DNA of 64,000 nucleotides from Chloroflexota bacterium (GTDB taxonomy: Bacteria; Chloroflexota; JAJPGV01). Position numbers and translations under genes: made by a program. The notes under the pieces were generated by a model, which worked only from the letters and a program-made list of their open reading frames with translations, searched no databases and was not told the DNA's origin. The stretch is taken from positions 62,001 to 126,000 of the forward strand of contig JAJPGV010000046.1 in assembly GCA_021325635.1 (NCBI GenBank), given 5' to 3'. This document shows, in pieces, positions 14,719 through 47,870 of the stretch. Position 1 is the first letter of the stretch, and every line of letters begins with the position of its first letter.

Positions 14719-15804
14719 ATGGCGGAGCGAAAGTGGCACAGCCTCTTCTTCGATGAGTGGGTAGCGCGCGAGGGCTTGGACCTCCTCCGCGGCTGGAAGG
14801 TGGACGACGTCTACACCGTGCCCCTGAAATACTGGGCTCGCACCGGCGGCAACGCCGTGCAGATCCAGCTCGACGGTACCGGCGAGCTCAACGCCGCCTA
14901 CGTGTGCGAAATTCCGCCGGGGAAAGAGCTCACTCCGCAGCGGCACCTGTATGAAGAGCTCACCTACGTCCTTTCCGGCCGTGGCAGCACCTCCGTATGG
15001 TACGAGGGGCAGGAGAAGAAGTCGTTCGAGTGGTCCGCGGGCAGCCTGTTCGCCATTCCGCTCAACGCCTGGCACCAGCATTTCAACGGCTCCGGCCGCG
15101 AGCCCACCCGCTTTCTGGCCATGACCACGGCGCCGGTGATGATGAATCTCATCCGCGATGAGGACTTCATCTTCAACAATGACCGCACCTTTCCCAGCCG
15201 CTACAGCGGCGCGGACAGCTACTTTTCCGGCGAGATCGATCTGGACACCTTCAATGGCTGGGACGTGCCGGTGTCCGTCGGCTTCAGCAACTTCTTTCCC
15301 GACATCGAGGCGATGAAATTCAACGACACCAACCGTGGCTGGCGGGCCCGCAGCGCGCAGTACGAGCTGGCCAACGGCGTCGTGAGCGCGCACACCCTGC
15401 AGATGCCGGGCGGAGCCTTCACCAAGCTTCACCGGCACGGGCCGGGAGCGCACGTGCTGTGGCTCAAGGGCGAGGGCTACACCATGATGTGGCCCGATGG
15501 CGGCGAATGGGTGAAGGAATTCTGGGGCCCGGGGACCATGCTCGTTCCGCCCGCCGGCTGGTGGCATCAGCACTGCATCGTCAGCAGCGAGCCGGCCGAG
15601 CACCTGGCCTTGAAGCTGGGCAGCCGCACGCACAGCGTGACGCGGGCCAACATGAACTCACTCAAGAGCACGCGCAACGGCGGCAACCAGATGGATTTCG
15701 AGGACACCCCGCCCGAAGTGCTCGACAAGCTCAATCGCATCTTCGAAGCCGAGTGCGCCAAACGCGGTACGCCCGCCCACCTGGAGGCGATCGCCGGCGG
15801 CTGA
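14719..15804 (+). CDS. Bicupin (two-domain cupin) protein
   Basis: Two cupin barrels of about 120 residues each, joined by a long linker, in a layout like gentisate- or salicylate-type ring-cleaving dioxygenases (about 350-370 aa). In barrel 1 the ligands are likely from QRHLYEELTYVLSGRG and NAWHQHFN. Barrel 2 has KLHRHGPGAHVLWLKGEGY and GWWHQHC, with a His where cupins usually have Glu. The same HRHGPGAHV signature recurs in the bicupin at 18 kb, so both belong to one subfamily. The ATG lacks a ribosome site but has TATCAT 7 bases upstream, so it may be leaderless. A metal-dependent oxygenase or isomerase is likely; the substrate is unknown. Confidence 0.78.
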   Translation: MAERKWHSLFFDEWVAREGLDLLRGWKVDDVYTVPLKYWARTGGNAVQIQLDGTGELNAAYVCEIPPGKELTPQRHLYEELTYVLSGRGSTSVWYEGQEKKSFEWSAGSLFAIPLNAWHQHFNGSGREPTRFLAMTTAPVMMNLIRDEDFIFNNDRTFPSRYSGADSYFSGEIDLDTFNGWDVPVSVGFSNFFPDIEAMKFNDTNRGWRARSAQYELANGVVSAHTLQMPGGAFTKLHRHGPGAHVLWLKGEGYTMMWPDGGEWVKEFWGPGTMLVPPAGWWHQHCIVSSEPAEHLALKLGSRTHSVTRANMNSLKSTRNGGNQMDFEDTPPEVLDKLNRIFEAECAKRGTPAHLEAIAGG

Positions 15805-16698: not shown

Positions 16699-17964
16699 TT
16701 AATCCCCGGCGATCTCGATGCCGTGCGGGCGAGTGCCGAGGCGGCGGCCACCTTGAGGGGTCACGACCACGGTGTCGCCCCAGGCGATCACGTACTCACC
16801 GTCCGCGGTGTGCATCTGCGGCTTGAGGATGAACACCATCCTGTCCTTCAGCGGCACGTTGAGCTGCTTAGGGTCCTTGGCGCTGCCGGTGATGATCGGG
16901 CCGTCGTCGCCCGCGCCTCGGCCGTGCATGGTCAACAGGCCGGTCGCGCCGGCGATGGGCCCGGTCTTTGGCGCGCTGTCGCTGGCCAGCTTGGCACAGC
17001 GCGTTTGCAGCTCACCCAGCGTCGTGCCCGGCTTCAGGTTCTCCATCATGTCGTCGAACAGCACCGCCTGAATCTTCATCAGCTCGGGGAAGATCGGGTC
17101 CGGCTGACCAACCGAGACCGGGACCACGCTCTGCGCGCGGTAGCCGCCCCAGGATGCTTCCAGCTCGTTGAAGATGATGTCGCCCTTCTGCAGGAGGCGG
17201 TGGCTGGCGCGCGTCAGCGTTCGCCGAGGGTGCGGGCCAGACACCCAGTTGCAGTGAACCGGCATCTCCGATCCCGCCTTGAACATGGCGTACATGCAGG
17301 CTGCCCACACTTCCCAATCGCTCACGCCCGGTCGAGCAGTGGCAACTTCGGCGTCGTTGGCCAGCTCGATCATCTCCTTGGAACGCGCCAGGAAGGCGAT
17401 CTCCTCTTCGCTCTTGACGTAGCGGATCTCCGCCATCAGGTCGGTGGCATCCACCAGGTCGGCGTTGGGAAAGGCGTCGCGGATCTGGGTGAAGGTGCCG
17501 TGGTTGATCGTGCCTTCGGGCGTCCTCGTGCCGTCACCCAGGCCGGCGATGCCAATGCGCTTAGGGTTGAGCTCCTTGAGCCGCTGCACGATGATCCGGC
17601 CGTAGTTGCGGCGCGCCTCGCGACAGTCCGTCACCCAGTCCTGGACGGTGGGCCAGCGGAAGCCGGCGGTGGTGGCTACGATGGTGACCTCGCCTTCCAG
17701 GGGAAATACGCCGGCGATGTCCGAATCACCGCCGCCGCCGCACTGCGTCAGCCAGCGGGTATTGGACTGGAAGTCGGTCGAATGGCCGGTGTTCTGCGGC
17801 GTCACGAGCGCGTCCAGGTTTTGCTCGGCCATGGCCTGACGCACCGCCTTCCAACGGCGGTCGCGCTCCTGCAAGGAGAAGAGCGGGTAGGGATACAACC
17901 CCTCACGGTGATCGACGTCGGCCAGGCTGCGGTCGACGGGATAGCGGTCCATGGAAACTGGCAT
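16699..17964 (-). CDS. M24 (Xaa-Pro peptidase/creatinase-fold) protein lacking metal ligands, paralogue A
   Basis: Two-domain creatinase/prolidase architecture: N-terminal domain to about residue 180, pita-bread domain 185-421. The five metal ligands of M24 peptidases (Asp, Asp, His, Glu, Glu) align with Glu267, Gln278, His347, Lys381 and Gly396, so the dimetal site is gone apart from the His. Creatinase is a known metal-independent member of this fold, so a C-N hydrolase or a ligand-binding role is more likely than peptidase activity. It starts FSLQERDRRW near residue 29, as in the two paralogues further on. Its ATG overlaps the stop of the upstream bicupin (TAATG), so the two are co-translated. 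Confidence 0.82.
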   Translation of the reverse strand: MPVSMDRYPVDRSLADVDHREGLYPYPLFSLQERDRRWKAVRQAMAEQNLDALVTPQNTGHSTDFQSNTRWLTQCGGGGDSDIAGVFPLEGEVTIVATTAGFRWPTVQDWVTDCREARRNYGRIIVQRLKELNPKRIGIAGLGDGTRTPEGTINHGTFTQIRDAFPNADLVDATDLMAEIRYVKSEEEIAFLARSKEMIELANDAEVATARPGVSDWEVWAACMYAMFKAGSEMPVHCNWVSGPHPRRTLTRASHRLLQKGDIIFNELEASWGGYRAQSVVPVSVGQPDPIFPELMKIQAVLFDDMMENLKPGTTLGELQTRCAKLASDSAPKTGPIAGATGLLTMHGRGAGDDGPIITGSAKDPKQLNVPLKDRMVFILKPQMHTADGEYVIAWGDTVVVTPQGGRRLGTRPHGIEIAGD

Positions 17965-19070
17965 TAGTCATTGCTCCCGTTGGAATTTGAGCCCGATCCT
18001 GGGTCGGGCATGTTCAGGGACACGCCGCGCCTGCTCAGCTCGGCGGCATACATCTCGCGAATGGCCGGGTCTTCGTCCTCGTACTCGATCTGATCGGGGC
18101 TGCCCTCTTCTCCACCGCTGATACCCAGCTTCATGGTGTGCTCGGGACTGCCCCCGCGGCGCAGCGCCAGGTAACGGGCCGGCTCGGGCCCCACGTTGAA
18201 GTGCTGGTGGTACCACCACTCCGGTGGGGAGAACATGCTGCCCTCGCGCCAATCGATGCGGATACGCTCCTTGCCCTCTTCCCACAGCAGCGAGTAGCCC
18301 TCGCCCTGGAGCACGACCACGTGCGCGCCCGGTCCATGGCGATGAGCCTTCTTGTAGGTGCCGACCTCGAACTCCGAGATGTGGCAGGCCATGGTGTTGT
18401 CAGCCATCGACAGGTGGAAGCTCTTGGCGCCCGAGCCCCGCATCTTCCAGCTGATCAGCGCGAACTCGCGCACGTCGGGCACGAAGTTCGTGCGCCACAC
18501 GCGGCCGCCGACGTAGCGGCCGGGATTGCTGTAGAAGTCCTGCTGGCCGCTGTAGCGATCGTCGAACACGATGGGGCTGTCGAACACCATGCGCTCGTTG
18601 TGGAACAGGCTCAGCACCAACGGCGCGTTGGACACCATCAGCAGCCTTGCCGGACGGCTGGGATCCAGGTTGCGGTGGCTGTAGGTCGTGTTCAACGGCG
18701 GCGAGAACAACCCCCGTTCCGACCAATCCACCGACGTTTGCGAATAGCCAGGCGAGGAGATCGTGGTCCGGCCGCTGCCTCGCACCACGTAGATAAGCGC
18801 CTCGAACATGTGCTTCACCGGCGTGGTCGCCTCGCCCGGAGCGATCTCGATCACGGCCGCGGTGGTGATGTGCGCATCGGCCAGGTTGACGAACGCCCCG
18901 CGACAGCCGAAGCGCTTCCACTCGCCGAGCTCGACGTCGGCCATCTGCTCGATGTGGAACACCTTGTGGATGGGAATGCCCTCGCCCGCCTGCCACGAGT
19001 CGTAAAACGACGGGGGACGCTTGTACTTGGTCGGCGTGGCGGGGATCGCCGCGGCGATGTCGATCGTCAT
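17964..19070 (-). CDS. Bicupin protein, co-transcribed with the M24-like gene
   Basis: A 368-aa bicupin related to the one at 14.7 kb. Barrel 1 has VKHMFEALIYVVRGSG and a His-bearing NTTYSHRNLD. Barrel 2 has AHRHGPGAHVVVLQGEGY and EWWYHQHFN. The C-terminal tail is acidic, ending in a Ser/Asn/Gly stretch. The ATG follows GGAGGATAGGG. A Fe(II)- or Mn-dependent ring-cleaving or related oxygenase is possible. Coupling to a creatinase-fold hydrolase suggests sequential steps on one substrate. Confidence 0.78.
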   Translation of the reverse strand: MTIDIAAAIPATPTKYKRPPSFYDSWQAGEGIPIHKVFHIEQMADVELGEWKRFGCRGAFVNLADAHITTAAVIEIAPGEATTPVKHMFEALIYVVRGSGRTTISSPGYSQTSVDWSERGLFSPPLNTTYSHRNLDPSRPARLLMVSNAPLVLSLFHNERMVFDSPIVFDDRYSGQQDFYSNPGRYVGGRVWRTNFVPDVREFALISWKMRGSGAKSFHLSMADNTMACHISEFEVGTYKKAHRHGPGAHVVVLQGEGYSLLWEEGKERIRIDWREGSMFSPPEWWYHQHFNVGPEPARYLALRRGGSPEHTMKLGISGGEEGSPDQIEYEDEDPAIREMYAAELSRRGVSLNMPDPGSGSNSNGSND

Positions 19071-19171: not shown

Positions 19172-19200
19172 TTGACAAGCCGCCGATCCAGTGTTTCTAT
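19172..19200 (+). promoter_or_regulatory. Promoter for the VOC-Rieske gene, probably leaderless
   Basis: TTGACA (19172-19177) is a perfect -35, with a 17-base spacer to TTCTAT (19195-19200). The predicted transcription start falls on or one base before the GTG at 19208, and there is no ribosome site. The -10 is poor, so confidence is moderate. Confidence 0.45.
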
Positions 19201-19207
19201 TTCCGAC

Positions 19208-20059
19208 GTGAGCGCACCGGAAAGTCAGCCGGCGCACGCCGGCCACAGCGTCGCCCTCAGCGCACCGACCAAAGAGATCGAAGGCTTCAGCCACATCGTG
19301 CTCGAGGTCAAGGATCTCGACGCATCTGAACGCTTCTATCGCGACGTCATCGGCCTGGAGACGATGGGCCGCGGCCTGCTGGCCGAGCCCAGGCCACACC
19401 TGCTGATGCGTCTCAACACCGGACAGATCATCGTGCTGGCGCAGAGCGACGATCCGGTGCCGATCCGCCACAATACCTCATCCATCCACCATGCGTTCCT
19501 GCTCACCATGGAGCAGTTCCGGGCCGCCCAGGAGCGCTTCGCCGCCAACGGCTACGAGATCGGCGATACGCGCGACGCCTTCCGCGCCAAAGGCGAGCAC
19601 TCCATGGACATCTGGGACCCCGACGGCCACCGCTGGCAGCTCCAGGCGTTCAGCGAAGAGCAGCACGAAATCATCACCTCCGGGCTGGGTGTCATCGACT
19701 GCGGACCCGCCGAGAAGTACGAGCTCGGCTCCGTCACGCCATTCGGCAAGGCTAACTTCTTCCTGGTGCGCTCGAAGGAAGGCTTCCTGGCGCTGTCGCG
19801 CTGGTGCCGCCACGCCAACGGCCTGCTGACCTACCAGATGGAGCACTGGCGCTTCTACTGTGCCTTCCACGGCGCGTGCTACAGCCTGGAAGGTGACCAC
19901 ATCGGCCACCTGGCCGGCATTCCACCGCTGCGCATGCATCCGCTGACGATCGCCGAGGACGGCCACGTCATGGTCGATACGGACACGGTGCTGGAACGGG
20001 ACGACGACACTCCGCCGCGCTACGTCGCGGCGTGCGAGCCGGCCGCGGCTCGATCATAG
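19208..20059 (+). CDS. VOC (glyoxalase-fold) domain fused to a Rieske [2Fe-2S] domain
   Basis: Residues 25-150 form a vicinal-oxygen-chelate module (FSHIVLEVKDLDASERFYRD ... IWDPDGHRWQLQAF, with candidate ligand His29). Residues 170-260 form a Rieske ferredoxin fold. The cluster ligands are Cys200 and His202 (WCRHANG) plus Cys218 and His221 (CAFHGACYSLEG), with the usual following PPLRMHPL ... DGHVMVDTD strands. I do not know this fusion as a described enzyme class. It may be an oxygenase or dioxygenase half-site with its own electron-transfer domain. I prefer the GTG at 19208 (283 aa) because promoter spacing makes it leaderless; an in-frame TTG lies inside the -35 box. It heads a run with two VOC genes and an ABC importer. 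Confidence 0.8.
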   Translation: MSAPESQPAHAGHSVALSAPTKEIEGFSHIVLEVKDLDASERFYRDVIGLETMGRGLLAEPRPHLLMRLNTGQIIVLAQSDDPVPIRHNTSSIHHAFLLTMEQFRAAQERFAANGYEIGDTRDAFRAKGEHSMDIWDPDGHRWQLQAFSEEQHEIITSGLGVIDCGPAEKYELGSVTPFGKANFFLVRSKEGFLALSRWCRHANGLLTYQMEHWRFYCAFHGACYSLEGDHIGHLAGIPPLRMHPLTIAEDGHVMVDTDTVLERDDDTPPRYVAACEPAAARS

Positions 20060-20075: not shown

Positions 20076-20534
20076 ATGGCGCAAGTAGAGAGCATCAGCC
20101 ACAGCGGCATCAACGTCATCGATCTGAAGGAGGCGGAGGACTTCTACGCCGACGTGTTCGGCGCGGAGATCACCAACCGGGTCAACTTCAACACCGACGA
20201 CGCCAAGCGCGGCCGCTCGGTGCACACCTCCGTGCACGTAGCCGACTGGCTGTTCGCCATCGTGCTGCCCAAGGGCGAGATGCCCATGCCTCCGGAGGAG
20301 CAGCTGCGCGGCACCAACGGCTTCCGCCACGGCTTCTGGGTCAGCCGCGATGCCTTCCCCGGAATCATGGAGCGGCTCACGGCGCGCGGCGTGCCTTTCG
20401 AGGGGCCGGCGACGCACCCCGAGGCCGGCCCGCTCGGCCAATCGATCTATTTCAAGGACCCGGGCGGAAATTTCATCGAAGTCTGCTGGCGGCGGGACTC
20501 CATCAGCGGCGCCGTGGCGCTGGACATTGGTTAG
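20076..20534 (+). CDS. VOC-family protein
   Basis: Single vicinal-oxygen-chelate protein (152 aa, two beta-alpha-beta-beta-beta modules), beginning ISHSGINVIDLKEAEDFYAD and ending GQSIYFKDPGGNFIEVCW, where His9 and the terminal Glu are the likely metal ligands. The ATG follows GAGAGG. Family members include glyoxalases, extradiol dioxygenases and isomerases; the substrate is unknown. It sits 16 bases after the VOC-Rieske gene and overlaps the next VOC gene. Confidence 0.82.
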   Translation: MAQVESISHSGINVIDLKEAEDFYADVFGAEITNRVNFNTDDAKRGRSVHTSVHVADWLFAIVLPKGEMPMPPEEQLRGTNGFRHGFWVSRDAFPGIMERLTARGVPFEGPATHPEAGPLGQSIYFKDPGGNFIEVCWRRDSISGAVALDIG

Positions 20535-21468
20535 CCCGCTCGCTGCTGCCCAATCCCCCACCTACGTCGACGTTCGCACGCCCAGGCTGAACGAGCCCCT
20601 GGGGCTCATCGCCGGCTACTCCCACGTGGTCCTCGAAGTGCAGGACCTCGCTCGCGCCCGTGACTTCTACGCCGGCGTTCTCGGCTTCGTCCCCGATGGG
20701 GACGCTGAAGACGGACCGCGCCTCAGGCTGGGCCGCGACCAGCACGTCGTCCTGGCTCAGCGCAACGAGCCCGACGTGCGGCCGGATTCAGGCATCCACC
20801 AGGCATATGGCTTCTCGCCTGACGACCTTCCCCGCGTGCTGCAGCGCCTGGCAGCAGCCGGCGTCGAGGTTCATGGCTATCACGAGGACCGCCCCGCCGA
20901 GCGCAGCCACAATCGCTATTGCTTCGATCCCGACGGTAACCGCATCCAGCTCATGTCCGGCCGGGCAGGCATCGATCACGTTGCCCTGGAAACGCACGAT
21001 CTGGAGTGGTCGGAGACCTTCTTCAGTCAGCTGCTGGGCGGCTGCATCGAGAGCCGCGTAGGCTGGCACATGCACGACTTTGCCGCCGCCCTGGCCTGGG
21101 GTGACGGCAAGGACGATTGCGCCCCCGGCACCAGGCGCTGGGACAAGCGCTACACCAGCATCGAAGACAAGTCCGCGGTGCCGCGGCCGAACGGCCAGCT
21201 CTTCGCCAGCTTCGCTCCGGGGGTGACGCTGGGTGTATACCTGGCCACCGAGCACCGGCAGGAGCCCCCCAGGGAGCAGCTCAGCGGGACGCCTCGCACC
21301 GGCCTGCGAGTGGCACCGGGACAGCTGCCCCGTGTGCAGGAGCGGCTGCTCCAGGTGCGGCTGCGCTGCCTCCGTTCCAACCCCGAGACCGGCGGCCCGT
21401 TCGAACGTCGCGGTTCGAGCCTTTTGTTGAGGGACCCCGCCGGAAACTTTCTGGAGCTCGGCGAGTAG
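20527..21468 (+). CDS. Double-VOC protein (extradiol-dioxygenase-like arrangement)
   Basis: Two VOC domains in tandem: YSHVVLEVQDLARARDFYAG ... RYCFDPDGNRIQLM (about 30-145) and IDHVALETHDLEWSETFFSQ ... LLLRDPAGNFLELGE (about 150-313). Two-domain VOC proteins of about 300 aa include type I extradiol dioxygenases, in which the metal site lies in the second half; here His and Glu are at the proper ends of domain 2. I place the start at a TTG overlapping the previous stop by 8 bases. No better ATG or GTG exists before the first domain, so the start is uncertain. Confidence 0.75.
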   Translation: MVSPLAAAQSPTYVDVRTPRLNEPLGLIAGYSHVVLEVQDLARARDFYAGVLGFVPDGDAEDGPRLRLGRDQHVVLAQRNEPDVRPDSGIHQAYGFSPDDLPRVLQRLAAAGVEVHGYHEDRPAERSHNRYCFDPDGNRIQLMSGRAGIDHVALETHDLEWSETFFSQLLGGCIESRVGWHMHDFAAALAWGDGKDDCAPGTRRWDKRYTSIEDKSAVPRPNGQLFASFAPGVTLGVYLATEHRQEPPREQLSGTPRTGLRVAPGQLPRVQERLLQVRLRCLRSNPETGGPFERRGSSLLLRDPAGNFLELGE

Positions 21469-21517: not shown

Positions 21518-22732
21518 ATGAGAACACGGCGTGAGGTTCTGAAGGCCGGGGCGGGCCTGGGCATAACACTGCTGCTTGCGGCCTGCGGCCAAAGCGGATC
21601 GCCGGCGGCCGGGAGCGCAGCGCCCAAGACCTCGGCTCCCGCGGCCGGAGCATCGCTCACTGGATCAGCCGCCGCCAGCGCCACTGCCGCTGCCGGCGCC
21701 GCGGCCGCCGTAGACATCAGCAAGCCGGTGGCGCCCAAGGTCGCCACCCTCGAGGCTGAGCTGGCACTGCCGGACGCCGTGCTTCAGGGAGCCAAGAAGG
21801 AGGGCAAGTTCACCTGGACGTCCTCGATCGACAAGGATGTGGCCAAGACGGTGATGGACGCCTTCATGAAGCGCTATCCGGACGTCCAGCCTCAGTACCA
21901 GGAAGGCAGCGAAGAGACCCGCACGGTCCGCACGCTCACCGAGTTCAAGGCCGGCCGCAACAAGCTCGACGTGGCCATGGGTCTGGGCGGCTTCCTGGGC
22001 GAATACAAGGCCGCCAACGCATTGAGCAAGCTGACGGATCTACCGGCCTACGCCAATTACGATCCCCCCTTCCGTGATACCCAGAGTGAGTGGGGTGGTG
22101 TGCGCTCGCAGTATTGGTCCATCGGCTACAACACCGACAAGGTCAAAGACGACGAGCTGCCGAAGACCTGGGACGACCTGACCGATCCCAAGTGGAAGGG
22201 CCGCATTGGTCTGGGCGATCGCCCGCAGCTGTGGGCCGAGCACCTGTGGAAGCAGTGGGGCGCCGATCGCACCACCGAGTTCTTGAAGAAGCTGTTCGCC
22301 AACGGCGTGCAGCGCCGCAAAGAGGGGCTCGACGCGGCCGCCCAGCTGCTGGGCGCAGGCGAGTTCGACCTGTACGTTCCCAGCGCCCCGTACCGCATCG
22401 AGGGCCTCGTCAAGAAGAAGACGCCGGTCGGCTGGTGGTCGCCGGACATGCTGCCGGTGTCGTTCTCGGATATCACCATCCTGAACAACATCCCCAACCC
22501 GAACTCGGCCAAAGTCTTCGTCAATTGGTTTCTCAGCCGCGAAGGCCAGGACGTGTACTGCAAGGCCGACTTCGCCGCGCCGACACACCCGGCCCTGCGC
22601 CTGGACAAGCAGTACCTGGGCATATTCGCCGACAGACTGCTGTCCCGAAAGTGGATCAACGTGGCGCCCGACGAGGAGCTCGCCATCCTGCCGGACGTTC
22701 GCAAGGTCTGGCAAGCGCTGTGGGTTGCCTAG
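21518..22732 (+). CDS. ABC substrate-binding lipoprotein with Tat-like signal
   Basis: Extracellular solute-binding protein of the iron/polyamine type. The N-terminus MRTRREVLKAG is twin-arginine-like and is followed by a lipobox LLAAC at about residue 24, suggesting Tat-exported lipoprotein. An Ala/Ser-rich linker follows to about residue 75. The mature domain has GAKKEGKFTWTSS, DLTDPKWKGRIGLG and NPNSAKVFVNWFLSREGQ. The ATG is preceded by GGAGAAAGGG. The permease gene starts 32 bases downstream, so this is the one binding protein in the window with a cognate channel. Confidence 0.88.
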   Translation: MRTRREVLKAGAGLGITLLLAACGQSGSPAAGSAAPKTSAPAAGASLTGSAAASATAAAGAAAAVDISKPVAPKVATLEAELALPDAVLQGAKKEGKFTWTSSIDKDVAKTVMDAFMKRYPDVQPQYQEGSEETRTVRTLTEFKAGRNKLDVAMGLGGFLGEYKAANALSKLTDLPAYANYDPPFRDTQSEWGGVRSQYWSIGYNTDKVKDDELPKTWDDLTDPKWKGRIGLGDRPQLWAEHLWKQWGADRTTEFLKKLFANGVQRRKEGLDAAAQLLGAGEFDLYVPSAPYRIEGLVKKKTPVGWWSPDMLPVSFSDITILNNIPNPNSAKVFVNWFLSREGQDVYCKADFAAPTHPALRLDKQYLGIFADRLLSRKWINVAPDEELAILPDVRKVWQALWVA

Positions 22733-22764: not shown

Positions 22765-24528
22765 ATGGCGCTGACGCTGGCCCGGCCGCTGGCGGCGCGA
22801 AACAGCTTTCGGGCGGGGAACGTTAATCTGTTTCCCTGGCTCGTCACGGCCGTCGTCGCCTTCCTGGTCGTCGTCCCGATAGTCATGCTCCTGCTGGGCA
22901 GCTTCAGCGCCGCCCGCCTGCCGACCGACTTCTCCCTGTCCAAGCTGACCACCGGCAACTACGCCACCGTCTACACCGACCCGTTGACCTACAAGGTCAT
23001 GTTCAACAGCGTGTGGTACGTGGCCGCCACTCTGCTGCTCGGGCTCAGCATGTCGACGCTCTTCGCCTGGCTGGTCTCACGAACGAACATGCCGGGCAAG
23101 TGGCTGGCGCTGGCGGGTATACCTCTGGCGCTCATCATTCCCAGCCTGCTGGAGTCGATGGTCTGGGTGCTGCTGTTCAGCCCGCGCATCGGCTTTGTGA
23201 ATCAGTACCTCATCGATGCCCTGCATCTGCCCAAGGCGCCCTTCGACGTTTACAGCCTGCTGGGCATGATCGCCCTCGAATCCCTGCGCACGGTGCCTAC
23301 AGGCTTCCTGATGCTGCTGCCGCTGTTCATGCGGCTCGATCCTTCGCTGGAAGAAGCAGCCATGACGGCCGGCGCGCCGATTGGCGCGATCGCCCGCAGG
23401 GTCACCCTACCGCTGCTGATCCCAGGGCTGCTCTCGGTGGCGCTGTACGAAGGAGTAACGGTGCTGAGCAGCTTCGAAGTCCCCGGCATCGTGGGCCTGC
23501 CGGGCCACGTCTACGTGTTCAGCACGCTGGTCTACACGTACACCAGCGCGGCTGCCTCGGCGGGGGGCAGCTCATTTGGCAATGCGGCGTCGCTGTCGGT
23601 GCTGTACCTGGCCATCAACCTGGGCGGCCTCTTGATCTACGGGCGGGTGACGCACAACGCCAGCCGCTACGCCATGGTCTCAGGGCGGAGCTATCGACCC
23701 CGCACCACCAATTTGGGCCGCTGGCGCTACGCGGCGATCGGCGCAGTTCTGGTGTACCTGTTCATCACCATCGTGCTGCCCGTTCTCGTCCTGGTATGGA
23801 CGTCGCTGACTCCCCGCATCTTGCAGCCGCGCGTGAAGTCGCTCGCCAGCGTGACCGGTGAGCCCTGGCAGCAGATGGTCGGCAACGCCGACCTCATGAA
23901 CGCCGTGGTCAACACCGCCATCACCGTGGCCGGCGCGGCGACGCTGACCGTGTTCGCCTCCCTGACGATTGGGTGGATCGCCGGCCGGACCACGTTCCGC
24001 GCCCGCCGGCTGCTGGATCAGCTCAGCTTCATCTCGCACGGTATGCCCGGCGTCATCCTCGGTCTGGCGCTGATCTGGTTTTGGGTGCGCGTCGACGCCA
24101 TTCCCATCTACGGCACGTTGTGGATCATCATCCTTGGCTTGTGCACGGGCTTCCTGGCGTACGGCACCAGGAGCATCGGAGCCGCGCTGCTGCAGGTTCA
24201 CAAGGAGCTCGAAGAGGCTGCCTACACCAGCGGCGCGCCGCCTGTCCTCGCCATCCGCCGCATCCTGACCCCGCTGATGCTGCCTGCGCTCGCCAGCCTA
24301 TGGCTGTGGGCCGCGCTGCAGGCGCTGCGCGTCGTCACGCTGCCGCTGATGCTGCAGACCGGCGAGGCCAACACCGTGCTGTCGGTGTACCTCTGGCGTG
24401 AGTGGGAAGCCGGCCAGATCAATCACGTTGCCGCGGTCGGCACGGCGCTGGTCGCGGTCATGTTCGTGGCCAGCCTGATCATCGGCCGCTTTGGGCTGCT
24501 CTCGCGCCGCTCCACCCTCGTGCATTAG
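22765..24528 (+). CDS. ABC transporter permease, two fused membrane domains (FbpB-like)
   Basis: A 587-aa integral membrane protein with about 12 transmembrane helices in two homologous halves, as in FbpB/ThiP-type iron and thiamine permeases. Each half has an EAA loop for docking the ATPase: LEEAAMTAGAPIGAIARRV at about 196-214 and LEEAAYTSGAPPVLAIRRI at about 481-500. It pairs with the upstream binding lipoprotein. No ATP-binding subunit follows it or occurs anywhere in the window, so a shared or distant ATPase must power it. Confidence 0.9.
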   Translation: MALTLARPLAARNSFRAGNVNLFPWLVTAVVAFLVVVPIVMLLLGSFSAARLPTDFSLSKLTTGNYATVYTDPLTYKVMFNSVWYVAATLLLGLSMSTLFAWLVSRTNMPGKWLALAGIPLALIIPSLLESMVWVLLFSPRIGFVNQYLIDALHLPKAPFDVYSLLGMIALESLRTVPTGFLMLLPLFMRLDPSLEEAAMTAGAPIGAIARRVTLPLLIPGLLSVALYEGVTVLSSFEVPGIVGLPGHVYVFSTLVYTYTSAAASAGGSSFGNAASLSVLYLAINLGGLLIYGRVTHNASRYAMVSGRSYRPRTTNLGRWRYAAIGAVLVYLFITIVLPVLVLVWTSLTPRILQPRVKSLASVTGEPWQQMVGNADLMNAVVNTAITVAGAATLTVFASLTIGWIAGRTTFRARRLLDQLSFISHGMPGVILGLALIWFWVRVDAIPIYGTLWIIILGLCTGFLAYGTRSIGAALLQVHKELEEAAYTSGAPPVLAIRRILTPLMLPALASLWLWAALQALRVVTLPLMLQTGEANTVLSVYLWREWEAGQINHVAAVGTALVAVMFVASLIIGRFGLLSRRSTLVH

Positions 24529-42502: not shown

Positions 42503-42743
42503 GCCTAGCCGGGCGCAACATCTGTGCCACCGGGCAGGCCGAATGCCGCGTTTGGCAGACGCAGCCGGCGTGGCCGTGAAGGGGCCCGCGGCGTCAGAAG
42601 CGGGAATGAGCCCAACTTGACACGAACCCTGCGCAGGGAGAATCCTCCTTGTGGGCCTCTTGCAGCCGAAGCAGGTGGCCTGCCAGCTTAGAAGACCGCC
42701 CGCGGCGAGGAATGCAGATGACGAACGTTCAGGGAGAAGTGAA

Positions 42744-44210
42744 TTGACGCCCAAAGAGAAGAAGCAGGTCGCGGAGGGTAACCTGCGCGAGTTCCTACGC
42801 CTGGCCAATGAAGACGGCGAGCTGGTCGTCGTCGACGGCGTGGACCCCGAGCTCGAGATGGGCGCGCTGTACGAGCTCAGCCTGGAGCACGAGTTCCCGC
42901 CCGTCCTCCTGTTCGACAACATCAAGGGCTATCCATCGGGCCGGCGCGTGCTCATGAACGTCCGTACGTCGCACCTGCTGAGCGACGGCAGGGGCATCGA
43001 AGCCGTGCAGGCCTACCGCCAGCGCAAACGGGACAGCGTTCGCACCACAGCCCTCCCGCCAGAGGAGGTCGAGACCGGTCCGGTCTGTCAGAACGTGCTG
43101 ACCGGCGACGATGTGAACGTGCTCGCCTTCCCCACACCGAAATGGCACGAGCTCGACGGCGGCGCGTACATCGGTACAGAGTGCATGGTCATCACCAAGG
43201 ACCCCGACAGCGATTGGGTAAACGCCGGCACGTATCGCGCGCAGGTGCAGGATGAGCGCACCATCAGCGTGTTCATCGAGCCAGGCAAGCACGGCCGTGT
43301 GATCCGCCAGAAGTACTGGGATCGAGGCGAGCCCTGCCCCATGGTCTTGACCGTCGGGCAGTCGCCAATGCTCAGCCGGCTGGCCGGATCGGGCTCGCAG
43401 TACGGCGAATCGGAGTTCGCCACGGCCGGCGGGCGGCTCGGGCGGCCTATCCAGGTAGTCCGCGGCAAGATCACCGGGCTGCCCTTTCCGGCCGACACGG
43501 AGATCGCCTTCGAGGGCTACATGCATCCACCCGAGGTCGAGGCCCGACCGGAGGGTCCATTCGGCGAATGGCCGGGCTACTACGCCTCCCACTCACGGCC
43601 CGAGCCTGTCCTGCGGGTCGAGGCTGTCTATCACCGCGATAACCCCATCATCACCGGGCAACCCCCGGCAAAGCCGACCTATCCCGGCCGGCAGGGCGGC
43701 AATGTGGCCACCGCCGCGGCCATCTGGGATGCGCTCGAAGCGGCGGGCGTGCCAGAAGTCAAGGGTGTGTGGAAGCTGCAGGGCGGCGGAGCGCGGTTCA
43801 TCACGGTTGTATCCATCCGCCAGCAGCACGCCGGCCACGCCAAGATGGCCGGACTGGTGGCGACCGGGTGCGGACCGGCAGCCTATCTCGGGCGCATGAC
43901 CGTGGTGGTGGACGACGACATCGACATCACCAATCCCGTGGAGGTCCTGTGGGCTATGGCGACCCGCTGGGATCCGAAGACGCAAACGGACATCGTCGAT
44001 GGCTGCTGGACCGGCCACATCGATCCCGCCCTCGACCCGGCCAAGCGCGAGGCCGGCGACATCACCAACAGCCGCATCATTATCTATGCCGTGCGGCCGT
44101 ACCACTGGCGTGAGGAGTTTCCCGCGGTCAATGAGATCTCGTCCTCCTACGCGGAGCAGGTTCGAGCCAAATGGGCGCCCAAGCTGGAGTTTTTGAGGAC
44201 TAAAGGCTGA
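42744..44210 (+). CDS. UbiD-family prenylated-FMN decarboxylase
   Basis: Family of reversible (de)carboxylases acting on aromatic or alpha,beta-unsaturated acids. Recognisable blocks: REFLRLANEDGELVVVDG, a PTPKWHELDGGAYIG segment near the cofactor site, GEPCPMVLTVG, and the catalytic EGPFGEWPGYYA with the conserved Glu pair; VATGCGPAAYLGRMTVVVDDDIDITN follows. Length 488 is usual. I chose a TTG with GGGAG 7 bases upstream; a longer in-frame ATG gives 31 extra poorly conserved residues. The following Rieske oxygenase gene is 4 bases away. No ubiX is visible. Confidence 0.88.
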   Translation: MTPKEKKQVAEGNLREFLRLANEDGELVVVDGVDPELEMGALYELSLEHEFPPVLLFDNIKGYPSGRRVLMNVRTSHLLSDGRGIEAVQAYRQRKRDSVRTTALPPEEVETGPVCQNVLTGDDVNVLAFPTPKWHELDGGAYIGTECMVITKDPDSDWVNAGTYRAQVQDERTISVFIEPGKHGRVIRQKYWDRGEPCPMVLTVGQSPMLSRLAGSGSQYGESEFATAGGRLGRPIQVVRGKITGLPFPADTEIAFEGYMHPPEVEARPEGPFGEWPGYYASHSRPEPVLRVEAVYHRDNPIITGQPPAKPTYPGRQGGNVATAAAIWDALEAAGVPEVKGVWKLQGGGARFITVVSIRQQHAGHAKMAGLVATGCGPAAYLGRMTVVVDDDIDITNPVEVLWAMATRWDPKTQTDIVDGCWTGHIDPALDPAKREAGDITNSRIIIYAVRPYHWREEFPAVNEISSSYAEQVRAKWAPKLEFLRTKG

Positions 44211-44214
44211 TGAC

Positions 44215-45420
44215 ATGCTGACCCGCGAAGAAAACGACCTGCTCACCCAGACCGGTCCCGGCACTCCCACCGGTGAGCTGATGCGCCGCTACTGGCTCCC
44301 GGCCATGCTCTCGGAGGAACTCCAAGCCGATGGCGAGCCCAAACAGCTGCGGCTCTTGAGCGAGCGCTTCGTCGCCTTCAGGGACAGCTCAGGCCGGGCC
44401 GGCATCCTGGACGAAGGTTGCCCGCACCGCGGCGCATCCCTGGCCTACGGCCGAAACGAGGAATGCGGCCTGCGCTGCATCTACCACGGCTGGAAGGTCG
44501 ATATCCACGGGAACATCATGGACATGCCTTCCGAGCCCGAGGACAGCACCTTCAGGACACGCATCAAGCACCGCTCGTATCCCACGCATGAGGCCGGGGG
44601 ACTGGTGTGGGCGTATTTCGGGCCGTCGGAGCTGAAGCCGGCCTTCCCGGACTGGCCCTGGCTGAGCGCGCCCGACAGCGACCGTGAGATCAACAAGGTG
44701 CTGCAGGAGTGCAACTACGCCCAGGGGCTCGAGGGCAGCATCGACTCCGTCCATTCCGACTTTCTGCACTCGTCGGACATCCGCGGCCGGCCCAGCGACC
44801 ATCGTCCACGGCTCGAAGTCGAGGATCGGCCTTACGGCTTCCGCTACGGGGCCATTCGCCGGCCCGACGGGGAGGCCGGCAAGAGCCAATACGTGCGTAT
44901 CACGCTGTACGTCGCGCCCTGCTACGTCCTCATCCCGATCCAGCGCCGCTCCGACGGCAGCGAAGTGGTCACCCACCACGCCTGGATACCCATCGACGAC
45001 GAGCACAACTACTTCTACAGCATTCGCTGGAACCGGCGGGGGCCGATCGCGCAGGACCACGGGGCGCAGTTCGCCATTGACGCCGAATTCCGTCCTGAGC
45101 GAAATCGGGCCAACAAGCACCTTCAGGATCGCGCCCTGATGAAAGCGGGCAACTGGTCCGGGATCATGGGCGTCAACAGCCAGGATTTCGCCGTGGTCGA
45201 GAGCATGGACCCCATTTACGACCGCACCCGAGAGCACCTGGGCAGCACAGACGTGGCGGTGGCCCGTTTCCGCCGCAGCGTTATCCAGGCGGCCCGTTCT
45301 GTCTCAGCCGGAGGCACTCCTCCTGGCCTGGACGGCGGGACCGACTTCCATTGTCTGGCCACCGAAGAACGCGTCGTGCCCATCGACATGCCATGGCAAG
45401 AAGTAGCCCCGTTCAGCTAG
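44215..45420 (+). CDS. Rieske ring-hydroxylating oxygenase alpha subunit (phthalate 4,5-dioxygenase-like)
   Basis: The Rieske domain has Cys69-His71 (CPHRGASLAYG) and Cys88-His91 (CIYHGWKVD). The mononuclear iron site lies in QGLEGSIDSVHSDFLH, with bridging Asp177 and ligands His180 and His185. The GASLxxGRNEEcGLRCIYHGWK pattern is the one I associate with phthalate dioxygenase and related O-demethylases. It needs a separate reductase, which is not in the window. It overlaps no gene but is tightly packed with UbiD upstream, and the SBP and Gfo/Idh/MocA genes lie downstream. Confidence 0.9.
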   Translation: MLTREENDLLTQTGPGTPTGELMRRYWLPAMLSEELQADGEPKQLRLLSERFVAFRDSSGRAGILDEGCPHRGASLAYGRNEECGLRCIYHGWKVDIHGNIMDMPSEPEDSTFRTRIKHRSYPTHEAGGLVWAYFGPSELKPAFPDWPWLSAPDSDREINKVLQECNYAQGLEGSIDSVHSDFLHSSDIRGRPSDHRPRLEVEDRPYGFRYGAIRRPDGEAGKSQYVRITLYVAPCYVLIPIQRRSDGSEVVTHHAWIPIDDEHNYFYSIRWNRRGPIAQDHGAQFAIDAEFRPERNRANKHLQDRALMKAGNWSGIMGVNSQDFAVVESMDPIYDRTREHLGSTDVAVARFRRSVIQAARSVSAGGTPPGLDGGTDFHCLATEERVVPIDMPWQEVAPFS

Positions 45421-45534
45421 GGCCATACGTGTCAGCTGTTTCCGCTATCCTGTGCCCTTTGTGAAGCGAAGCAATCGCTCTGGCACCATGTGTTCTCGGC
45501 CAGGCAAACCAACCTCGAACCAAGGAGGCCCACC

Positions 45535-46671
45535 GTGAAGTCCACCTCGCTTTGGTGCCTTACTGCCGTTCTGGCCACCCTGCTGCTGGGCGCTTGCGGC
45601 TCTTCGACGGCCCCGACCGGGGCACCAGCAGCCCAAACGAGCCCCGCTTCGGCCACCTCTACTTCCGATTGGGACCAGGTCGTCGCTGCCGCCAAGAAGG
45701 AGGGCAAGGTGGTCATTGCCGGGCCGAATTATGCGCTCTGGACGCAGGGCCTGCAGACCTTCTCCAAGGCTTACCCCGACATCAAGGTCGAGATCACCGA
45801 GTTCAACTCACGCGACTTCTGGACGCGCCTCGCTACCGAGCGCAAAGCGGGCCAGTACCTGTGGGATTTGCGCATCGGCGGCCCTGACCCGCAGGTGTTC
45901 GACGCCCTCAAGAACGGCAGCCTGGCGCCGGTGCGGCCGCTGTTGGTCCGGCCCGACGTGACGGATCCGAACAGATGGTTCGGCGGCATCAACGGCCTTT
46001 ACGCCGACAGCGCCAAGCAGTCACTGCTCAGCTTCGTGGCCGAGGCTGGCTACGAAGCGTACATCAACCGCGACTTCGTTCCCGACTCTGCCCTGTCCAC
46101 CTATGAGCAGCTGCTCGACCCACGCTGGAATGGCAAGATCGCCATCCAGGATCCGACCGGAGGCGCCGGCCTGGGCAGCGCCACGACGATGCTCGTAGCC
46201 CACGGCGAGCAGTACCTACGCGACCTCTTCGGCAAGCAGAAGCCGCTGCTGACGAGGGATCAGCGCCAGGAAGCCGAGTGGGCCGTGCGCGGCACGTACC
46301 CGATTGGCATCGGCATCGTGCCGACCGACCTGGAGCTGTTCCGCAGCCAGGGGCTGAAGTTCAACATCCAGGGGCTCGATTTCCCGCGCAAGCTTTCGTC
46401 CGGCTCGGGCGGCATTCAGCTCATCGACAAGGCCCCCCACCCCAACGCCGCCAAGGTGTACGTCAACTGGCTGCTGAGCCAGCAGGCGCAGACCGACATC
46501 TCGAAGCTAGCGGGGGTCAACAGCCGCCGCCTGGACGTGCCGTCCGGCAATCCTGACCCCACCGCCGTCCTCGATCCCAAGCACGTGGCCGACTACGTGC
46601 CCCATCAGTCTGAAGAGCTGCTGCCTCAACGCGAGAAGGCAGCCGCTATTGCTAAGGAGTTGCTGCAGTAA
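45535..46671 (+). CDS. Iron-type ABC substrate-binding lipoprotein, paralogue of the 13.5-kb one
   Basis: Lipobox LLGAC (Cys21) after a short hydrophobic signal, then a Thr/Ala/Pro linker. The mature domain has AAKKEGKVVIAGP, LLDPRWNGKIAIQDPTG and KAPHPNAAKVYVNWLLSQQ. These blocks parallel the lipoprotein at 13.5 kb. I placed the start at GTG after AAGGAGG (378 aa), which removes a 15-residue upstream extension lacking signal features. TAATG overlap couples it to the Gfo/Idh/MocA gene. The operon context suggests it carries an aromatic or phthalate-like acid, not necessarily iron. Confidence 0.87.
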   Translation: MKSTSLWCLTAVLATLLLGACGSSTAPTGAPAAQTSPASATSTSDWDQVVAAAKKEGKVVIAGPNYALWTQGLQTFSKAYPDIKVEITEFNSRDFWTRLATERKAGQYLWDLRIGGPDPQVFDALKNGSLAPVRPLLVRPDVTDPNRWFGGINGLYADSAKQSLLSFVAEAGYEAYINRDFVPDSALSTYEQLLDPRWNGKIAIQDPTGGAGLGSATTMLVAHGEQYLRDLFGKQKPLLTRDQRQEAEWAVRGTYPIGIGIVPTDLELFRSQGLKFNIQGLDFPRKLSSGSGGIQLIDKAPHPNAAKVYVNWLLSQQAQTDISKLAGVNSRRLDVPSGNPDPTAVLDPKHVADYVPHQSEELLPQREKAAAIAKELLQ

Positions 46672-47870
46672 TGTCCACTCAAGCGCCACCCCGCGTCCTG
46701 CGCTACGGCGTCGCCGGTCTTGGCATCGCCAGCACGCAGATCCTGCCGGAGTTCGCCGGCAGGCCGCACCTTCAGCTCACCGCGGCAGCCGACCCGCGCC
46801 CTGGCGGCCTGGAGAAGTTCGCTCAGCAGTACGGCGGCGAGACGTACGACAGCGTCGAAGCAATGTGCACGAGCCAGAATGTTGACGCCGTCTACGTCTG
46901 CACCCCTAACCACCTGCACGCCGAACACGTGATCACGGCGGCCGAGCACGGCAAACACGTCATCGTCGAAAAGCCCATGGCCCTGACGCTGGCCGAAGCC
47001 GAAGCCATGAATGAGGCCGCCGAGCGCAACGGCGTCAAGCTGCTGTGCGGCCACACCCACAGCTTCGATCCACCGGTGCGCAAAATGCGCGAGCTGGTGC
47101 ACGGCGGCGAGCTGGGCGCGCTGCGGATGATCAGCACCTGGCACTTCAATGAGTTCATGTACCGGCCGCGTATGCCACAGGAGCTGGATGCCGCCCGCGG
47201 CGGCAACATCGTCTACAACCAGGGGCCGCACCAGCTCGACATCGTGCGGCTCATCGGCGGCGGGCTGGTGCGCAGCGTCCGCGCCATGACGGGCATCTGG
47301 GACCCCGCCCGGCGCGCGGAAGGCGCCTACTGCGCCTACCTCGAATTCGAGGACGGCACGCCGGCCACATTGGCCTACAACGGCTACGGGCATTTCGACA
47401 CCGCCGAGTTCAGCGAATGGGTCGGGGAGCAGCAGCGCGACCCCGACTACAACCTCCGCATGCGCCGCCAGCTCAGCGGCGCCAAGACGCCCGAGGATGA
47501 GTGGGCCCTCAAGGAAGCGCAGCGCTTCGGCGGCGGCCAGGAACGCGACTATCACGAGCGCCGCGGCGACCGTCCGCAATCAATCTTCGGAGTCACGATC
47601 GTCAGCTGCGAGCACGGCGACATCCGCCAGACGCCCAACGCCCTGCGCATCTACGGGGATGAAAAGGTGTGGGAGGTACCGGTGGCAGCTGGGGAGCGTG
47701 GCCGGGCCGCGGAGCTCGAGGAGCTTTACCAGGCGGTCGTCAACGATCGCCCCGTGTTCCACGACGGTCGCTGGGGCGAAGCCACCCTGGAAGTAGTCCT
47801 CGCCATCATGCAGTCCGCCCGTGAGCATCGTGAGATCAGCCTGTCCCATCAGGTGCCCGTCATCGACTAA
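46671..47870 (+). CDS. Gfo/Idh/MocA oxidoreductase (phthalate dihydrodiol-dehydrogenase-like)
   Basis: The N-terminal Rossmann motif is GVAGLGIAS. CTPNHLHAEHV and the catalytic Lys motif VEKPMALTLAEAEAM follow. The C-terminal alpha/beta domain has STWHFNEFMYRPRMPQELD, then NIVYNQGPHQLDIVRLIGGG. The YRPR..EELD..GG..xNQ..HQ.DIVRLLGGG pattern resembles phthalate cis-4,5-dihydrodiol dehydrogenase. With the upstream dioxygenase this would give consecutive steps. The match is from recollection of family sequence, so treat the substrate as inference. Confidence 0.82.
   Translation: MSTQAPPRVLRYGVAGLGIASTQILPEFAGRPHLQLTAAADPRPGGLEKFAQQYGGETYDSVEAMCTSQNVDAVYVCTPNHLHAEHVITAAEHGKHVIVEKPMALTLAEAEAMNEAAERNGVKLLCGHTHSFDPPVRKMRELVHGGELGALRMISTWHFNEFMYRPRMPQELDAARGGNIVYNQGPHQLDIVRLIGGGLVRSVRAMTGIWDPARRAEGAYCAYLEFEDGTPATLAYNGYGHFDTAEFSEWVGEQQRDPDYNLRMRRQLSGAKTPEDEWALKEAQRFGGGQERDYHERRGDRPQSIFGVTIVSCEHGDIRQTPNALRIYGDEKVWEVPVAAGERGRAAELEELYQAVVNDRPVFHDGRWGEATLEVVLAIMQSAREHREISLSHQVPVID

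Follow-up and report, generated by a model that had tools for sequence, protein, structure and literature searches.

A recurrent fusion of VOC and Rieske domains, possibly a component of an oxygenase, in Chloroflexota and Alphaproteobacteria

A gene from a Chloroflexota bacterium encodes a single protein in which a VOC domain is followed by a Rieske domain. Within the sources searched this fusion appears to constitute a new protein family and a new architecture, the function of which we infer from sequence. The gene is intact, its ligand sets are conserved, its two halves are co-inherited and the order of fusion gene and two further VOC genes (VOC1 and VOC2) recurs in catabolic and transport loci. 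The favoured, though tentative, explanation is that the protein serves as a redox-active metalloenzyme subunit in a multi-component oxygenase, in which the Rieske domain would pass electrons from a reductase to a metal held in a VOC fold, either its own or that of VOC1. The stretch of DNA analysed, referred to here as the window, is 64,000 nucleotides long and forms part of a 161,761-base contig in a 4.64 Mb draft genome, the sole sampled genome of its class.

The fusion gene and its protein

The fusion gene (19208..20059, + strand) begins with GTG and encodes 283 amino acids. The VOC domain (19286..19642, + strand, residues 27-145) was matched by PF00903 with an E-value of 4.9e-12 and has putative metal positions at H29, H94 and Q144, while the core of the Rieske domain (19745..19900, + strand, residues 180-231) was matched by PF00355 with an E-value of 4.1e-6 and has C200, H202, C218 and H221 as putative ligands; both scores exceed the curated Pfam cut-offs. 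The preliminary description had read this open reading frame as one VOC and Rieske protein, which is borne out by the two Pfam domains in a single open frame, and its coordinates, GTG start, His29, Cys200, His202, Cys218 and His221 were all located as claimed. A stop or frameshift between the halves was looked for and none was found, the reading frame being uninterrupted. An assembly artefact or frameshift was ruled out by the open frame together with the recurrence of the fusion in independently assembled genomes. The pattern CxH-x15-CxxH arose in 29 of 20,000 shuffles of the protein's own residues and this, taken with the matching of both Pfam domains in 41/41 aligned members of the family, ruled out a chance origin of the Rieske motif. 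The two extra cysteines of disulphide-type Rieske proteins are absent from the core.

An alternative start is an in-frame TTG at 19172 (+ strand). The sequence TTGACA at 19172-19177, which precedes the GTG by ~30 bases, may be a -35 box and not part of a longer reading frame; a consensus scan found no promoter.

With the family alignment AlphaFold2 gave a confident two-domain model (pLDDT 86.9, pTM 0.77) with residues 1-26 disordered. The best Foldseek matches of the model were single-domain relatives, namely the Rieske protein kuste4569 (9rk4; TMt 0.83 to the Rieske half) and VOC proteins of the FosX/FosB/FosA type. It is clear from PF00903 and these Fos matches that the protein has the paired beta-alpha-beta-beta-beta fold of VOC proteins, and from PF00355, the ligands in 41/41 members and Foldseek that it has a Rieske fold with CxH...CxxH ligand pairs.

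Spread and inheritance of the family

No described enzyme with the order VOC then Rieske was known to the first reading of the sequence, and no account of one was found in a search that covered the open-access literature. Membership in a curated family was rejected, as no NCBIfam model spans both halves and all NCBIfam matches were far below cut-off.

The search for the architecture across genomes that had been proposed at the outset revealed that it recurs, with both domains in every one of the aligned members. Three copies are present in the source genome, 100, 72 and 48% identical. Of 400 Chloroflexota genomes sampled, four carried the fusion, including the source genome, and in a second Chloroflexota family it was found in 3/5 genomes, with 4, 7 and 14 matches. 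Further carriers came from a profile-guided, alignment-based scan covering 84,980 species genomes, namely MAGs of Alphaproteobacteria, a single MAG of Gemmatimonadetes and one more of Chloroflexi, whereas a single-sequence scan of genome contigs yielded no fusion match. The family thus reaches three phyla with dozens of copies, and in one alphaproteobacterial order it was found in 8/11 genomes. All of the named records carrying the fusion are MAGs. Viral contigs and plasmids gave no match, by which a phage or plasmid origin was ruled out.

The family is strongly amplified, since one contig (G055:C277, 25-60 kb, loci L115 and L116) packs an array of six copies into 13 kb, several of them accompanied by a VOC1 or VOC2 of their own, and another genome (G184) has 14 matches. 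Two of the G184 copies are possibly broken, L033 having a single-frame match for its VOC half alone and L030 having two internal stops. In the phylogenetic tree, which includes a deep clade of Chloroflexota copies, the members group according to phylum. When members are compared pair by pair, the identities of their VOC halves correlate with those of their Rieske halves (Mantel r 0.81; 0/2000 permutations as high), which indicates that the two halves have been inherited as a unit.

Putative metal and cluster sites

The four putative cluster ligands, C200, H202, C218 and H221, are invariant in the 41 aligned members, as are H94 and the run D137-P138-D139, and H29 is present in 40/41. In an alignment to FosB, for which we take the metal-binding residues from general knowledge, the VOC metal positions fall on H29, H94 and residue 144, ligation being assigned by alignment only. 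Residue 144 is always Gln or Glu, Gln in 36/41 and Glu in 5/41, and the five Glu members share one clade with a single Gln member. The Gln144 of the window protein, which the first reading of the sequence missed, thus occupies the position of the metal-binding Glu of FosB-type VOC proteins. The His-His-Glu Fe(II) site of the type I extradiol dioxygenases is not found in the window protein or in the 36 Gln members, and judged by its putative site the fusion protein is not a canonical extradiol dioxygenase, because Gln replaces Glu.

The Rieske half is closest by profile to kuste4569 and PetC-type proteins and more weakly to the CarAc ferredoxin, and no oxygenase alpha subunit was among the 60 matches listed for its profile. 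The two additional cysteines that mark disulphide-type (bc1-type) Rieske proteins are missing from most members. Both are present in five (L020, L022, L026, L031 and L032), always paired, and because of this difference reduction potentials probably vary within the family.

Gene neighbourhoods

Downstream of the fusion gene in the window, on the same strand and with short gaps or overlaps throughout, lie four genes. VOC1 (20076..20534, +), which begins 16 bases downstream, encodes a single-domain VOC protein of 152 aa with a His...His...Glu site, of which H9 and E135 are invariant in the VOC1 alignment. VOC2 (20527..21468, +; 8-base overlap with VOC1) encodes a two-domain VOC protein of 313 aa that folds like double-domain glyoxalases and PcpA; its metal sites look degenerate, the N-terminal one lacking the first His in many relatives, and it is possibly a structural or regulatory partner instead of an enzyme. 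An extracellular solute-binding lipoprotein (SBP_bac_6/8; 21518..22732, +), which belongs to a recurrent neighbour cluster, and an ABC permease (BPD_transp_1, aminoethylphosphonate/iron type; 22765..24528, +) follow.

The divergent neighbour (17964..19070, - strand) is a double-cupin protein with a remote match to a 5-aminosalicylate dioxygenase model. Beyond it lies an M24 pita-bread protein of the creatinase/DoeA-like type (16699..17964, - strand) without the usual metal ligands, which are replaced in 13 aligned relatives; given this ligand assignment, which we take from general knowledge, it is likely a metal-free, creatinase-like hydrolase. A SIP-family FAD reductase (PF04954, PF08021; 15818..16636, +) is a possible electron donor in the source genome, and a second double-cupin protein is encoded at 14719..15804 (+). 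Elsewhere in the window a second catabolic block (42651-47870) comprises a UbiD decarboxylase (42651-44210), a LigXa-type Rieske oxygenase (44215-45420), a solute-binding protein (45490-46671) and a Gfo/Idh oxidoreductase (46671-47870).

Neighbours were counted around 42 fusion copies with a purpose-written gene caller, and the counts must be read with the caveat that some neighbourhoods are cut by contig ends and that the copies are not independent. A VOC gene lies directly downstream on the same strand in 38/42 and two VOC genes in 23/42, and such genes follow the fusion in both Chloroflexota and Alphaproteobacteria. Several alphaproteobacterial genomes keep the order fusion, VOC1, VOC2, M24 and solute-binding protein. 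Within 8 kb an M24 gene is found near 20/42 copies, UbiD near 8/42 and a double cupin also near 8/42, and transporter genes are close to many. Genes for the oxidative breakdown of aromatics, namely LigXa-type oxygenase (7/42), Rieske-oxygenase alpha (3/42), UbiD and double cupin, are often found close by and speak for the explanation favoured below. No reductase family matched at least two of the 75 sampled neighbours, the SIP reductase being found in the window only.

These neighbourhoods bear on an explanation that is unlikely but a serious rival, namely that the Rieske half is an electron carrier, the ferredoxin of a conventional Rieske oxygenase, and that the fused VOC domain cleaves or isomerises the product of that oxygenase in a manner similar to BphF/BphC. 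The fusion genes of L036 and L047 are immediately preceded, on their own strand, by genes for a Rieske-oxygenase alpha subunit (plus beta), and in the source genome the 72%-identical paralogue (L113) has an alpha gene 870 bases upstream. Soluble Rieske ferredoxins lack disulphide cysteines, as does the main clade of the family, and the profile matches the carbazole dioxygenase ferredoxin, with some members matching HcaC ferredoxin models. For most copies, however, no Rieske-oxygenase gene lies within 8 kb (alpha near 3/42, LigXa-type near 7/42), the near-constant partner is instead the downstream VOC gene, and the tandem array on G055:C277 contains no oxygenase gene between its several fusion genes.

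A possible function

In the favoured explanation the C-terminal Rieske [2Fe-2S] domain would take electrons from a reductase and hand them to a VOC-bound metal of the non-haem type, probably Fe(II), the receiving site being either H29/H94/Q144 of the fusion itself or the His-His-Glu site of VOC1. The fusion, VOC1 and VOC2 would most likely form one multi-component oxygenase, the substrate of which would be an imported aromatic or related compound. Assembly of the cluster, identity of the metal, direction of the electrons, formation of the complex and the substrate are all points that we infer. The mechanism first suggested for the protein, in which the Rieske cluster feeds the VOC metal site of the same chain, is plausible and fits the data, because conservation and co-inheritance extend to both sites, the genes nearby are catabolic and there are precedents in ChaP and TxDE/TflA. 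These enzymes show that VOC-fold sites can run reductant-dependent oxidative chemistry; ChaP uses flavin-activated oxygen (PMC12281474), and TxDE/TflA requires O2, Mn(II) and a reductant (PMC3143149). As the reductant acts on the substrate of TxDE, which must be reduced first (PMC3143149), the Rieske domain could by analogy reduce the substrate instead.

Several observations count against the favoured explanation: most members have Gln as third ligand, there is no recurrent reductase and none of the best PDB matches covered both domains. The cysteine pair of five members, typical of high-potential Rieske proteins, would poorly suit a donor for O2 activation. The stronger proposal of a new class of reductase-dependent oxygenase, with the fused Rieske domain feeding a His/His/Gln (or Glu) metal site in the VOC domain and the whole in complex with one or two further VOC subunits, is doubtful.

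A second serious rival, though also rather improbable, is that the Rieske domain serves only for repair, re-reducing iron that has been accidentally oxidised to the ferric state in a VOC site of the extradiol type, its own or that of VOC1, as a built-in counterpart of XylT. Reactivation by ferredoxin of VOC-type catechol dioxygenases is established (cited in PMC3222310, PMC8696081). The His-His-Glu site of VOC1 would be a suitable client, and occasional electrons would suffice, so that a dedicated reductase would be needless. The reactivators of catechol dioxygenases known to us are, however, separate plant-type ferredoxins and none is a Rieske protein, and the lack of Glu at the fusion's own site in most members would be unusual for an extradiol enzyme. 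Least probable is that the VOC domain is a non-catalytic or non-redox binding module of the DnrV or bleomycin-resistance type that presents a ligand, with the Rieske domain reducing that ligand or sensing redox state. In its favour, the VOC protein DnrV works through product binding (PMC12979805), the TxDE substrate must first be reduced (PMC3143149) and the third ligand is often Gln, but the near-invariance of His29 and His94 is more than a pure binding pocket needs.

Were electrons shown to pass directly to the VOC metal, as the favoured explanation has it, the fusion would be a categorically new type of oxygenase, in which a Rieske cluster drives oxygen chemistry without the classical helix-grip domain as its scaffold. 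To our knowledge only one catalytic scaffold is found with the Rieske domains that drive oxygenases. VOC-fold ring-cleaving dioxygenases, for their part, need no external electrons. A conserved and amplified family joining the two would reveal a second way of wiring electrons to oxygen-activating metal sites, and would give a testable function to hypothetical genes of uncultured Chloroflexota and Alphaproteobacteria, probably aromatic degraders.

Comparison with known systems

The alpha subunits of Rieske non-haem iron oxygenases (PF00355 with PF00848 or PF19301) likewise carry a Rieske and a metal-binding domain on one chain and share with the fusion an aromatic catabolic context. In the fusion the order is reversed, the Rieske domain being C-terminal, and the second domain is a VOC domain and not a helix-grip domain. 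No Pfam match to a helix-grip domain of the PF00848/PF19301 type was found in the fusion protein or in any of the 41 members, and because this domain is absent the protein, on its predicted domains, is not a Rieske oxygenase by definition. The Rieske-type ferredoxins CarAc, HcaC and BphF are of the soluble type without disulphide cysteines, as are most fusion members; the fusion differs in its added VOC domain, in the disulphide Cys pair of five members and in usually having no oxygenase alpha gene nearby.

By sequence and fold the closest relatives of the VOC domain are FosA, FosB, FosX and other single-domain VOC metalloenzymes, from which the fusion differs in its Gln instead of Glu as third ligand, its Rieske domain, its catabolic operon and scores far below the NCBIfam cut-offs. 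The NCBIfam equivalog cut-offs for extradiol dioxygenases were likewise not approached. ChaP, of the chartreusin pathway, and TxDE/TflA, of toxoflavin degradation, are VOC-fold metal enzymes whose oxidative chemistry draws on flavin-activated oxygen or a reductant, but they have no Rieske domain and rely on a separate source of reductant or flavin, and the family profiles match the sequences of ChaP and TflA weakly. The XylT-type ferredoxins associated with catechol 2,3-dioxygenase are plant-type proteins on a separate chain with a role in repair only, yet in them a [2Fe-2S] protein serves an iron site in a VOC fold, as is proposed for the fusion.
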